Part shown: in pieces, positions 54,702 to 58,220 of the stretch | Layout: each line of letters opens with the position of its first letter | How positions within the stretch are numbered: position 1 is the stretch's first letter | DNA from: Agromyces soli | GTDB lineage: Bacteria; Actinomycetota; Actinomycetes; Actinomycetales; Microbacteriaceae | NCBI RefSeq assembly: GCF_022811605.1 | Contig: NZ_CP094533.1 | Span: forward strand, 2,852,001-2,916,000 | DNA length: 64,000 nt | Reading direction: 5' to 3' | Position numbers and translations under genes: made by a program | Notes under the pieces: generated by a model | Seen by the model: the letters and a program-made list of their open reading frames with translations, nothing else | Told to the model about the DNA's origin: nothing | Databases searched by the model: none

Positions 54702-55328
54702 TCAGCGGAAGAGGTTCTGCAGGTCGAGCAGCACCCGCGGGATGGCGTCCATCTGCACCTGCGCGAGGAAGATGACGATCGCGTAGCAGACGACCGTGAT
54801 GAGCGGGATCCAGCCGAACCACGACGCGGCGAGGCGCTTGATCCGCGCGGAGGCCGGCAGATTGCCCTCGCGCAGGTTGTACAGCGTGACGACCCAGAAC
54901 GTCGGGATCGTGACCGCCCAGGTGAGCATGCACCAGGGGCACAGCACGTCGAGCACGTAGATGCTCTGGTAGATCAGCCATCCCACGAAGACCAGGGCGC
55001 CGGCGACGCCGACGTTCAGCCCGACCCAGAACCACCGCGCGAAGCGGGCGCCGGCGAGGATGCCGATCGCGATCGTGATGACGACGGGCCACGCCGCCAC
55101 GCCGATGAACGGGTTCGGGAAGCCGAACACGGAGCCCTGCCAGGACTCCAGGTTCGTCGCACAGCCCACGAGGACGCCGACGTTGCAGTTCGGCACGTGC
55201 GTCGGATCGATGAGCGTGAGCACCTTCTCGACCGAGAGCTCCCATGCGGCCAGCAGCCCGAGGGCGCCGGCGATGAGCAGGAAGACGGCGAGGCCGATCG
55301 GGCGTGTGCGGCGAGCGGAGTCGGGCAT
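54702..55328 (-). CDS. Vitamin K epoxide reductase (VKOR) family protein
   Basis: A 208-residue membrane protein with four to five helices. The loop cysteines lie in PNCNVGVLVGCATNLESW and the active-site pair in YVLDVLCPWCMLTWAVT, the VKOR arrangement that passes electrons from thiol-disulfide exchange to quinone. In actinobacteria VKOR reoxidises a DsbA-like protein; no such partner is in this window. ATG 55328 is chosen because the minus-strand hexamer CAGAAT ends six bases upstream; the frame open to 55439 precedes this. Confidence 0.88.
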   Translation of the reverse strand: MPDSARRTRPIGLAVFLLIAGALGLLAAWELSVEKVLTLIDPTHVPNCNVGVLVGCATNLESWQGSVFGFPNPFIGVAAWPVVITIAIGILAGARFARWFWVGLNVGVAGALVFVGWLIYQSIYVLDVLCPWCMLTWAVTIPTFWVVTLYNLREGNLPASARIKRLAASWFGWIPLITVVCYAIVIFLAQVQMDAIPRVLLDLQNLFR

Positions 55329-55396
55329 GGTCGTATTCTGACACGCCCGCGGGGCGGGCAGCTGCGGGGATTCCACCTCGGCGGCGGCGGGCGTGC

Positions 55397-55402
55397 GATA
55401 AT
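55397..55402 (+). promoter_or_regulatory. -10 element of rne
   Basis: GATAAT, one base from consensus; start near 55409, giving a leader of about 217 bases. Confidence 0.5.
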
Positions 55403-55408
55403 CGGAGG

Positions 55409-55625
55409 GAAGTCGGTTCGGACCAGCCTGGTCCGGCACCGGCGAAGGCTTTGAGGATGCCCAGGCATCCGAGACGCGGCGAACCCGCCGCGGAGATGTC
55501 GCGACCGAGGCACCACCCGCCCGGTTGCAGAGAAGAGTTGGCGGTCACCCGCACGCGGGGGCCGCTCCGAGGAGTACGGAGGCCGGCCGACGAGGTCGAG
55601 CCACCGGTGTAGGAGTGCACCAGAG
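55409..55625 (+). ncRNA. Long structured leader of the RNase E/G gene
   Basis: Contains three successive hairpins: CGGACCA/TGGTCCG (55419-55435), GGATGC/GCATCC (55455-55470) and CGCGGC/GCCGCG (55475-55492), followed by a purine- and G-rich part up to GTAGGAG before the ATG. In E. coli RNase E controls its own mRNA through a folded 5' UTR; the same may hold here but the sequence is unrelated. I cannot assign it to a named RNA family. Confidence 0.5.
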
Positions 55626-58220
55626 ATGGTGGAAGGCAACAACGAGAACCCCACGAACGATTCGACCCGAGGGGCCAAGCGGCTCGGCGGGCTGTTCGGC
55701 TCCCGACGCGGCGGTCGGCGCGCGACGCTCGTGCCCCGCGCCGACGACGTCGCAGACGCGCCGACGGTCGACGCCCCTGCGGACGAGGTCGAGGCCCCGG
55801 CGGCCGCAGTGACGGACGCCGTCGCCGAGATCCCCGCCGCGGACCCGGCCGAGACGCCGGCGGCGACCGCGGGCGAAGCGCCCGCCGCGGCGGAGGCCCC
55901 GGCGGCCGACGCCGAGACTGCGGCGACGAGCGACGCGTCCGCCGACGCCGCGAGCGCCGAGGCGGAGCCGGCGGAGGAGCTGCGCCCGATCACCGGGCCG
56001 ATCTCGACGACGTCGCTGATCTTCCGTGCTCCGCCCGTCCTCGTCGTGCCGGAGCGCGCCGAGTCCGACGACGAGCGCGACGAGTCCTCGAGCGTGCGCC
56101 GGCGCACGCGTCGCCGCAGCGGCGAAGAGGCCCGTTCGAACGGCGACGCCCCGGCGAACAACGTCGTCAAGGTGCGCAAGCCCCGCGAGCCCGAGCTCAT
56201 CACCGAGCCCCAGAAGGTCAAGGGCTCGACCCGCCTCGAGGCGAAGAAGCAGCGCCGCCGCGACGGTCGCGACGCCGGCCGTCGTCGTGCGGTGATCACC
56301 GAGTCGGAGTTCCTCGCCCGCCGCGAGGCCGTCGACCGGCAGATGATCGTGCGGCAGAAGGGCGGCCGCATCCAGATCGGCGTGCTCGAGGACAACGTGC
56401 TCGTCGAGCACTACGTCGCGCGCAACCAGGACGCCTCGCTCATCGGCAACGTCTACCTCGGCCGGGTGCAGAACGTGCTGCCCAGCATGGAGGCCGCGTT
56501 CGTCGACATCGGCCGCGGCCGCAACGCCGTGCTCTACTCGGGCGAGGTCGACTGGGAGGCCGCCGCCGAGAACGGCGAGAAGAACCAGCCCCGCCGCATC
56601 GAGCTCGCCCTGAAGCCCGGCGACCGGGTGCTCGTGCAGGTCACGAAGGACCCGGTCGGCCACAAGGGCGCGCGCCTCACGAGCCAGATCTCGCTGCCGG
56701 GCCGCTACCTCGTCTACGTGCCGAACGGCTCCATGAACGGCATCAGCCGCAAGCTCCCCGACACCGAGCGGGCCCGGCTGAAGAAGATCCTCAAGGAGGT
56801 GCTGCCCGAGAACCAGGGCGTGATCGTGCGCACCGCCGCCGAGGGCGCCACCGAGGAGCAGCTGACCCTCGACGTGAACCGGCTGATCTCGCAGTGGTCC
56901 GACATCTCGGCGACCCTCGAGAAGGTGCAGGCGCCCGCGCTCCTGCACTCCGAGCCCGACCTGCTGATCAAGATCGTCCGCGACGTCTTCAACGAGGACT
57001 TCCAGAAGATGATCATCTCGGGCGACGAGGCCCGCGAGACGATCGAGCGCTACCTGCGGCAGGTCGCGCCCGACCTGCTCGAGCGCGTCGAGGCCTACCG
57101 CGGCGACACGGACGCCTTCGACGAGTACCGCGTCTCGGAGCAGATCGAGAAGGCGCTCGACCGCAAGGTGTGGCTGCCCTCCGGCGGATCGCTCGTCATC
57201 GACCGCACCGAGGCGATGACGGTCGTCGACGTCAACACGGGCAAGTTCGTCGGGTCCGGCGGCAACCTCGAGGAGACGGTCACGAAGAACAACCTCGAGG
57301 CGGCCGAGGAGATCGTCCGGCAGCTGCGGCTGCGCGACATCGGCGGCATCATCGTGGTCGACTTCATCGACATGGTGCTCGAGTCGAACCGCGACCTCGT
57401 GCTGCGCCGGCTCATCGAGTGCCTCTCCCGCGACCGCACCAAGCACCAGGTCGCCGAGGTGACCTCGCTCGGGCTCGTGCAGATGACGCGCAAGAAGCTC
57501 GGTCTGGGCCTGCTCGAGTCGTTCTCGGAGCCCTGCGAGACCTGCGCCGGCCGAGGCATCATCGTGCACCACGAGCCCGTCTTCCGGCACCGCGCCCCGC
57601 AGCAGCAGCCGGAGCGCCGCCGCGGACGCGGCGGCAACGGCAACGGCGGGGGCAACGGCGGGGGTCGTGACCGCGAGCCGCAGCAGCCGCAGGCGCCGCA
57701 GCCGGACAAGTCGGCGTCCGCCGGCACCCACGGCATCACCGAGGACGCGAAGCACGCCCTGGCCCAGATCGCCGCCTCGACCATCGCGGGCGGCGAGCCG
57801 CGCGAGTCGGAGCAGGCTGCAGCCGAGGCCGCGCCCGCCGAGTCGCGCTCCTCGCGCCGCCGCGGCCGTCGCCGGGCGAGCAGTGCCCAGCAGGCCGGCG
57901 AGCAGCAGGCCGACGCGACGAACGCCGACGGCGCGGATGCACCGCCGGAGCGCCCCGCGCGCGAGCGCGAAGCCGAGCCGACCGCGCCCGCCGCGGAGTC
58001 CGCCGCCGCACCGATCGTCCCGGTGATCGAGCTCCCCGAGGCTCCCGTGCGCAGCCGGCCGAACCCGCCCGCCGACACCGAGCACCTGCTCGACTCCGTG
58101 CTCGACGCGCTGCCGGCGCCGAAGAAGGCGGGGGAGGGCCGCGCCCGCAGCCGCCGCGTCAGCACGGCGTCGAGCGCCGGTGGCGAGGCCCCGGTGATCA
58201 CCCGGCCGCAGGAGGACTGA
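55626..58220 (+). CDS. rne: Ribonuclease E/G
   Basis: An 864-residue endoribonuclease, the main mRNA-decay and rRNA-processing enzyme. The N-terminal about 250 residues are low-complexity, Ala/Glu/Asp-rich, then Arg-rich. The S1 domain covers about 258-320 (IGNVYLGRVQNVLPSMEAAF); catalytic Asp residues lie in MTVVDVNTGKFVG (about 534) and IIVVDFIDMVLESNRD (about 578); the zinc-link Cys pair is CETCAGRG (about 637). The C-terminal tail is disordered, with a Gly/Asn-rich run (about 668-680) and Arg-Gly patches. The catalytic core is central, the typical actinobacterial layout. ATG follows GTAGGAG. Confidence 0.94.
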   Translation: MVEGNNENPTNDSTRGAKRLGGLFGSRRGGRRATLVPRADDVADAPTVDAPADEVEAPAAAVTDAVAEIPAADPAETPAATAGEAPAAAEAPAADAETAATSDASADAASAEAEPAEELRPITGPISTTSLIFRAPPVLVVPERAESDDERDESSSVRRRTRRRSGEEARSNGDAPANNVVKVRKPREPELITEPQKVKGSTRLEAKKQRRRDGRDAGRRRAVITESEFLARREAVDRQMIVRQKGGRIQIGVLEDNVLVEHYVARNQDASLIGNVYLGRVQNVLPSMEAAFVDIGRGRNAVLYSGEVDWEAAAENGEKNQPRRIELALKPGDRVLVQVTKDPVGHKGARLTSQISLPGRYLVYVPNGSMNGISRKLPDTERARLKKILKEVLPENQGVIVRTAAEGATEEQLTLDVNRLISQWSDISATLEKVQAPALLHSEPDLLIKIVRDVFNEDFQKMIISGDEARETIERYLRQVAPDLLERVEAYRGDTDAFDEYRVSEQIEKALDRKVWLPSGGSLVIDRTEAMTVVDVNTGKFVGSGGNLEETVTKNNLEAAEEIVRQLRLRDIGGIIVVDFIDMVLESNRDLVLRRLIECLSRDRTKHQVAEVTSLGLVQMTRKKLGLGLLESFSEPCETCAGRGIIVHHEPVFRHRAPQQQPERRRGRGGNGNGGGNGGGRDREPQQPQAPQPDKSASAGTHGITEDAKHALAQIAASTIAGGEPRESEQAAAEAAPAESRSSRRRGRRRASSAQQAGEQQADATNADGADAPPERPAREREAEPTAPAAESAAAPIVPVIELPEAPVRSRPNPPADTEHLLDSVLDALPAPKKAGEGRARSRRVSTASSAGGEAPVITRPQED

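Follow-up and report, generated by a model that had tools for sequence, protein, structure and literature searches.

The pace of mRNA decay is determined by RNase E, which in Escherichia coli reportedly exerts feedback on its own mRNA, a stem-loop of the rne leader being reported to serve as the sensor; this 5' UTR element is Rfam family RF00040 (rne5). A further element, rne-II (RF01756), is likewise located in front of rne. In Weinberg 2010 (PMC2864571), rne-II, a candidate from Pseudomonadales, is marked 'Y' as an RNA and 'y' as a cis-regulatory one. In the accessible part of a review on Streptomyces RNases (PMC10126417), PNPase and RNase III are described as autoregulated, with no such mention of RNase E. 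For M. smegmatis, a further study (PMC10641625) reports that the rne mRNA had a longer half-life, without repression, once the native promoter and 5' UTR of rne were replaced, a result obtained with a leader different from that of Microbacteriaceae and with the promoter changed too. No title among the literature matches listed concerned an actinobacterial rne leader, subscription papers being mostly outside that search.

Here we describe the rne leader of Agromyces soli, contained in a window of 64,000 nt (the whole stretch of DNA analysed; contig NZ_CP094533.1). This leader was conserved, was found once per genome and before rne, displayed covariation in hairpins H1, H5 and H6 and carried a conserved hairpin at the start codon (Table 1). 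It is almost certainly a real conserved structured cis-element and apparently represents an undescribed class of cis-regulatory RNA of rne in Microbacteriaceae. When the whole window was compared with Rfam 15 (cmscan, gathering level), the leader was without match and only a tRNA elsewhere was reported; between 55300 and 55800, a search up to E 10 gave hya as its sole row (E 8.4, 55748-55800), inside the rne coding region. Neither RF00040 nor RF01756 thus matched the window at gathering level or the interval 55300-55800 up to E 10. Thirteen rne upstream loci from other actinomycetes, searched at gathering level, yielded nothing relevant.

Table 1. Features of the rne locus of Agromyces soli (positions are those of the window)
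Feature	Position	Strand	Basis or remark
Extended -10 element TGCGATAAT	55394..55402	+	predicted transcription start about 55408-55410
H1, two stacked helices	55412..55443	+	minimum-energy fold, set A3, tree-aware test
AAGGCUU, single-stranded, with a putative RNase E cut at G55448/C55449 (RR/CNU)	55445..55451	+	sequence motif
H2, GGATGC-CCAG-GCATCC	55455..55470	+	minimum-energy fold
H3	55475..55492	+	minimum-energy fold
H4, GCGACC ... GGTTGC	55500..55528	+	minimum-energy fold; consensus fold of 148 leaders
R1 match (3' module H5-H7)	55533..55635	+	76.0 bits, E 2.6e-15
H5	55540..55566	+	pairing in set A2, tree-aware test
H6, directly 5' of the Shine-Dalgarno sequence	55576..55606 (about)	+	set A2, tree-aware test, alignment of the window to the model
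Shine-Dalgarno sequence AGGAG	55611..55615	+	invariant in the 44 sequences of set A1
H7, CACCA-GAGA-UGGUG	55618..55631	+	model alignment, GNRA loop counts
rne (RNase E/G, 864 aa)	55626..58220	+	TIGR00757

The product of the gene behind the leader matched TIGR00757 in a profile search (506 bits, 6.5e-152), which agreed with its earlier identification as RNase E/G; with NF052588 it reached 768 bits, below the cut-off of 1400 for that family. The GATAAT proposed as -10 in a first-pass annotation of this DNA was recovered at 55397-55402 within the extended -10 element, and the leader had the size given there, 217 nt (55409-55625) from the expected start to the rne ATG at 55626. The promoter itself was conserved: among 71 loci found with the covariance model, 66 had the pattern TGnGATAnT at 150 to 360 nt 5' of the ATG, whereas the opposite strand of the same interval had it in nine. 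The neighbouring gene on the upstream side runs divergently (54702-55439 in its longest reading, minus strand), the gap being common to this gene and rne. Its product resembled the VKOR family (E 1.6e-8), yet remained under the curated cut-off.

Among same-genus relatives, a DNA search covering 60 genomes uncovered the leader at nearly full length in 33 of 36 cases, partially in two and not at all in one; in one relative it was 98 % identical. DNA-level matches were present in 98 of 299 family genomes and, among the matches listed, mostly comprised the 3' end only. R1, a covariance model built from 44 sequences to represent the 3' module with 105 positions and 28 pairs, matched 199 of the 299 Microbacteriaceae genomes, representing 62 of 85 genera, with one match per genome at E <= 0.001 among the rows listed, and gave no match in the remaining 100; in the source genome, the match in the window was the sole one at E <= 0.001. 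Conservation in relatives, which the first-pass annotation had proposed to look for, was thus borne out. Over 248 genomes of the order, R1 found ten matches, all in Microbacteriaceae, and missed eight of the nine genomes of genus g106 among those listed, a genus in which the leader has diverged. Both scans (the family, then the order) were run with strict filters, by which weak matches are lost.

When a collection with a single genome per species (84,980 species) was scanned for exact copies of GGAGTGCACCAGNRATGGTGGA, at least 119 stretches were located. The 80 titles among the matches listed were those of Microbacteriaceae genera, of MAGs so labelled or of a few unresolved MAGs (among the matches listed, one 'Actinomycetales' and one 'Micrococcales'); the genera included Agromyces, Leifsonia, Clavibacter, Rathayibacter, Herbiconiux and Subtercola. 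The earlier suggestion of an undescribed actinobacterial cis-element therefore holds for 'undescribed', considering the lack of an Rfam match together with strong conservation and covariation, while 'actinobacterial' is too wide for this structure, since the matches of R1 in the order (strict filters) were in Microbacteriaceae only and the GGAGTGCACCAGNRATGGTGGA titles listed pointed to the same family or to a few unresolved MAGs. As an interpretation, the earlier reading is partly supported.

The element displayed a fixed place before one gene, rne, as expected of a structured cis-regulatory RNA. Behind the element, an RNase E frame continuous with the start (identity of 45 % or more over 60 aa) was recovered for 32 of 34 loci found with the model and for 105 of 119 found with the motif, loci of the same genomes recurring in these sets. 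Of the 16 exceptions, 12 had too short a downstream sequence (86 to 718 nt) and four displayed RNase E solely in a frame other than that of the conserved start (L294 from Pseudolysinimonas kribbensis, L068, L332 and L338), which could reflect a sequencing error, a real frameshift or the use of another start.

The leader folded with a minimum energy of -112.1 kcal/mol against -92.6 kcal/mol for shuffled sequences (z -4.05, none of 200 shuffles folding as well). Of 28 family leaders, each folded against 40 shuffles, 20 had z < -2 (mean -2.43). The three consecutive hairpins noticed in the first-pass annotation reappeared in the minimum-energy fold as H1, H2 and H3, the first of them (55419-55435) being the inner part of the longer H1. 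The remainder of the leader had been described as mostly unpaired, which did not stand: it contains H4, H5, H6 and the start-codon hairpin H7. The earlier observation is thereby partly confirmed.

Pairing in the 5' module was followed in set A3, 81 sequences selected by forms of the CUU element described below. Here, 143 cells were changed on both sides of a pair, compared with 53.2. All 11 pairs of H1 displayed such double changes, and 80.8 % of cells were paired. Significance was assessed with a tree-aware test distinct from R-scape, which combined a G statistic with the average-product correction and reshuffled substitutions on a FastTree tree; three of the 11 H1 pairs were significant when tested alone and two of 16 when tested together with H2, while slid controls of these 16 gave none. 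The loop of H1 was AGCCU in the window and CCGCG in most relatives. Support was weaker for H2 and H4. H2 had 69.8 % of its cells paired in A3 and double changes in four of five pairs, none of which was significant in the tree-aware test, in an alignment that was poor at H2; two pairs of H4 ranked 13 and 18 of 27495 by covariation, without significance. H3 as such displayed no conservation outside the genus when leader sequences were inspected by eye.

The strongest covariation of the leader was encountered in H5 and H6. It was measured on set A2, composed of 99 model-aligned matches (92 distinct), of which 90 entered the tree-aware test after removal of near-duplicates. H5 comprised 12 pairs, all changed on both sides, with 86.5 % of cells paired and ten pairs significant. 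In H6, five of 11 pairs were significant, four in the inner and one in the outer helix, with 86.6 % and 72.9 % of cells paired, respectively; the window itself, aligned to R1, displayed several non-standard pairs in H6 and a CGAGG loop, which is CGCGG in most relatives. Overall, 86.5 % of A2 cells were standard pairs, cells with double changes numbered 397 where shuffles had 131.7, and pairing fell to 31-45 % when partner columns were slid by one to three positions. The tree-aware null left 15 of 28 pairs at E <= 0.05 and none in six slid controls, and the top 19 scores among all column pairs of A2 were pairs of the structure.

As A2 was fitted to R1 and part of its rows had served to build this model, an alignment made from sequence only is of importance. 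In a MAFFT alignment of 107 sequences, no pair reached E 0.05 when every column pair was considered (lowest E 0.067). With the test confined to the pairs of a named structure, three of 48 passed (two in H1, one in H6), while the slid controls from -3 to +3 had 0, 0, 0, 0, 1 and 0 significant pairs, the single one lying two columns off a true H5 pair. On this same alignment, the window's own minimum-energy fold (L001, 68 pairs) had no significant pair, and those of L005 and L033 had three each, the mean being 1.4 over the 107 members. Covariation beyond phylogeny, the other property that had been proposed for examination in relatives, was hence found in the model-fitted alignment and, for three of 48 named pairs, in the one made from sequence only. 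The structure before rne and around its start codon is kept by selection, behind a conserved promoter.

The changes also bear on the idea that the inverted repeats act as DNA, namely as regulator sites for rne and for the divergent upstream gene that shares the gap with it. This is hardly credible: every repeat lies 3' of the promoter, the loop of H7 prefers GNRA sequences (see below), and G-U pairs are kept on one strand (in A2, GU 19 at 14-73 and GU 17 at 111-149), so that RNA explains the changes and DNA symmetry does not.

Hairpin H7 encloses the start codon in such a way that the A of AUG is the last base of the loop, with UG being paired. Its loop was GNRA in 54 of 56 A2 rows, all eight GNRA sequences being represented (GAGA 17, GCGA 17, GGAA 6, GCAA 5, GUGA 4, GAAA 2, GUAA 2, GGGA 1); the two exceptions were L104 (CCGA) and L126 (CUCA). 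This count was restricted to the A2 rows up to L128, which were not picked by the start motif, because leaders gathered with the start pattern are GNRA by construction (164 of 164); the 56 rows had been collected either with R1 or through their DNA similarity to the window, and each of these routes is biased towards the start region. The stem was CACCA/UGGUG in 53 rows, CCCCA/UGGUG in two and CGCCA/UGGCU in one. The latter, L090 from genus g106, displayed an A-U to G-C change in codon 2 and had lost the outermost pair. Four further g106 loci found by protein (L132-L135) displayed, by eye, a diverged relative of the H7 layout, with CCAGAGATGG at the start in three of them and GCAGTGATGG in L132. 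In other actinomycetes (for example L162, L172, L204 and L221), inspection by eye often placed the Shine-Dalgarno sequence GGGAG within a small hairpin that CCC(G) closes immediately 5' of the start codon, which suggests that folding of the ribosome site may be a general trait of rne.

GNRA loops are typical docking sites. That the terminal A of such a loop is the A of AUG would fit a leader that regulates rne through some other effector acting on the start-codon hairpin, be it an RNA-binding protein, a metabolite, temperature or a small RNA, and the most conserved parts, the Shine-Dalgarno sequence and H7, form the ribosome site, as expected for any translational control. A ligand-sensing RNA should however be encountered on other genes too, whereas R1 gave one match per genome among the rows listed, before rne wherever the sequence sufficed, and the RRCUU element fits the site of RNase E itself. 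We regard another effector as possible though somewhat unlikely.

Most of the leaders inspected displayed a purine-rich strand between H1 and H2 that ends with CUU. In 164 unique Microbacteriaceae leaders (loci L001-L128 and L238-L356, retained if they had both the promoter and the start pattern), RRCUU occurred at offset 15-140 in 120, against 29.5 in shuffles, and 88 of these 120 had it at offset 40-44. The other 44 included GUCUU (Clavibacter type), GCUU and forms without C, such as AAGGUUU or AAGAUUU in L112, L254 and L304. According to PMC10641625, RNase E sites of M. smegmatis and M. tuberculosis prefer RR/CNU in vivo (the slash marks the cut), and the four that were mapped using the purified enzyme agree with RN/CNU. 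RRCUU fits this preference and is a candidate site; its second-position U was nearly fixed (80 of 81 rows of A3, a set selected through forms of the element), and the preference does not require this U.

Beyond the family, 79 rne upstream loci were considered: 40 belonged to the order (18 families besides Microbacteriaceae) and 39 to the remaining orders sampled within the class. GCGATAC was present in 45 of them, against one on the opposite strand. Forty-seven of the 79 loci had the promoter pattern, and in 45 of these RRCUU was located 100 to 360 nt behind it; controls gave 15.0 in shuffles, five on the opposite strand and one in rne coding sequence. Judged from these motifs, the promoter and the short RRCUU element are shared more widely in actinomycetes than the folded structure.

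The GCUU of this element could also be an anti-Shine-Dalgarno sequence, which pairs with GAGU to close a multibranched fold and is no cleavage site. The RNAalifold consensus of 148 leaders indeed closes its multiloop by GCUU/GAGU at the Shine-Dalgarno sequence, and 95-99 % of 107 sequences are able to form this pairing, but both sides hardly vary. In 44 leaders of other actinomycetes, pairing of the element with the ribosome site of its own leader was no stronger than with the sites of other leaders (means of -11.3 and -11.5 kcal/mol, 3264 of 5000 permutations being as good) and the element ranked 0.58 among windows of its own leader, where 0.5 is random. As this pairing also leaves the conserved purines before CUU without explanation, we consider it improbable and retain RRCUU as a putative cleavage site.

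Small ORFs were a distinct feature of the loci outside Microbacteriaceae, where 43 of 79 had one before rne (for example L159, L172, L217, L221 and L237), about 55-75 codons long in most readable cases. Their products followed the pattern ..VVRHxTPAVRPDDVLxALRxVADLAPP..TRLAQGPLDE.., with differences of 0.27, 0.22 and 0.54 by codon position. In the 29 of these 43 loci that had the promoter pattern, the RPDD codon was located exactly 39 nt behind it, which indicates that the ORF begins right behind the -10, like leaderless mRNAs. No NCBIfam family was found for two members and no Pfam family above cut-off for three. The ORF possibly encodes an undescribed small protein or a leader peptide of the rne mRNA.

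These ORFs, and an open frame of 102 codons running through the leader in the window, could suggest that Microbacteriaceae regulate rne through an upstream ORF or leader peptide, which we find very unlikely. The lengths of 30 Agromyces leaders modulo 3 were mixed (remainder 2 in 14, 0 in ten, 1 in six), the commonest ORF start column was occupied in 44 of 148 family leaders only, and the protein of the small ORF was not found in the source genome in a search run without positive control. A conserved translated upstream ORF, as expected of a leader-peptide attenuator, was thus not seen.

The loops of H1 and H6 are complementary in most relatives. Among the 164 unique leaders, 118 had both CCGCG in H1 and CGCGG in H6, 29 had neither, 13 had the H6 loop only and four the H1 loop only; as the leaders are related, a Fisher value for this co-occurrence means little. 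Of five loop pairs tested as a set, the central one, G20-C192, reached E 0.0064 and the remaining four gave no signal. Over 36 distinct loop combinations (129 of 164 leaders having assignable loops; a wrong H6 loop was used for the window in this set, the model alignment giving CGAGG), pairing was better than in permuted combinations (three of 2000 as good), but this was not so for the 21 combinations without the usual loops (161 of 2000 as good). The window's own group displayed unusual loops at 55425-55429 (H1 AGCCU, or AGCCC in L002) and 55591-55595 (H6 CGAGG); in the window, AGCCU and CGAGG could form three pairs, CCU-AGG. L028 and L258 had the H1 loop alone changed. Kissing of the two loops is suggestive, given mostly joint loop loss with little compensation; if the loops do make contact, the ribosome site would lie inside a closed fold.

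A wider scenario may be put forward tentatively, although we hold it to be rather unlikely. The rne leaders of actinomycetes would be one ancient self-control device, with a common promoter, a ribosome site held in a fold and, ahead of a hairpin, an RRCUU at which the mRNA is self-cleaved. In many lineages, the 5' end would be occupied by a small leaderless ORF; in Microbacteriaceae, this ORF would have been replaced by a hairpin whose CCGCG loop kisses the CGCGG of H6 beside the ribosome site, and one cut by RNase E between the two would undo the closed fold around the start codon.

For the Microbacteriaceae leader itself, autoregulation by RNase E cleavage is plausible from the motifs and folds described, and negative feedback of RNase E through the leader is the mechanism towards which we lean. 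The leader, a non-coding RNA encountered so far in Microbacteriaceae, would be transcribed from the TGCGATAAT promoter and would fold into H1, a single-stranded RRCUU, H2, H4, H5, H6 and then the GNRA-capped start-codon hairpin, H6 and H7 keeping the ribosome site weakly accessible. RNase E would recognise this folded leader and, when in excess, might cut the single-stranded RR/CUU between H1 and H2. The 5'-monophosphate end thereby exposed would reduce the life or the translation of the rne mRNA, and RNase E would in this way limit its own production. The leader constitutes an RNA family missing from Rfam 15 and, with H1, RRCUU and the start-codon hairpin, would offer a short, sharply defined RNA for tests of how actinobacterial RNase E finds its targets.

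The leader is probably like the rne leaders of E. coli and Pseudomonas in function and a member of neither family. Like RF00040, it is a structured 5' leader of an RNase E gene; feedback by RNase E was reportedly demonstrated for the E. coli leader, whereas it is inferred for that of Microbacteriaceae. Compared with the known architecture of the E. coli rne leader, it differs in sequence and architecture, having a start-codon hairpin. To rne-II, it is similar as a candidate structured cis-regulatory RNA of rne, but it belongs to a different taxon, its occurrences among the matches listed being in Microbacteriaceae or unresolved actinobacterial MAGs and not in Pseudomonadales. The mycobacterial RNase E is of the same branch as the Agromyces enzyme (NF052588, with the score below cut-off given above), but RR/CNU cleavage was, according to PMC10641625, measured in M. 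smegmatis and M. tuberculosis, whereas the site in the Microbacteriaceae leader is a candidate. If it constitutes an independent third class, in actinobacteria, leaders of rne would have arisen repeatedly.
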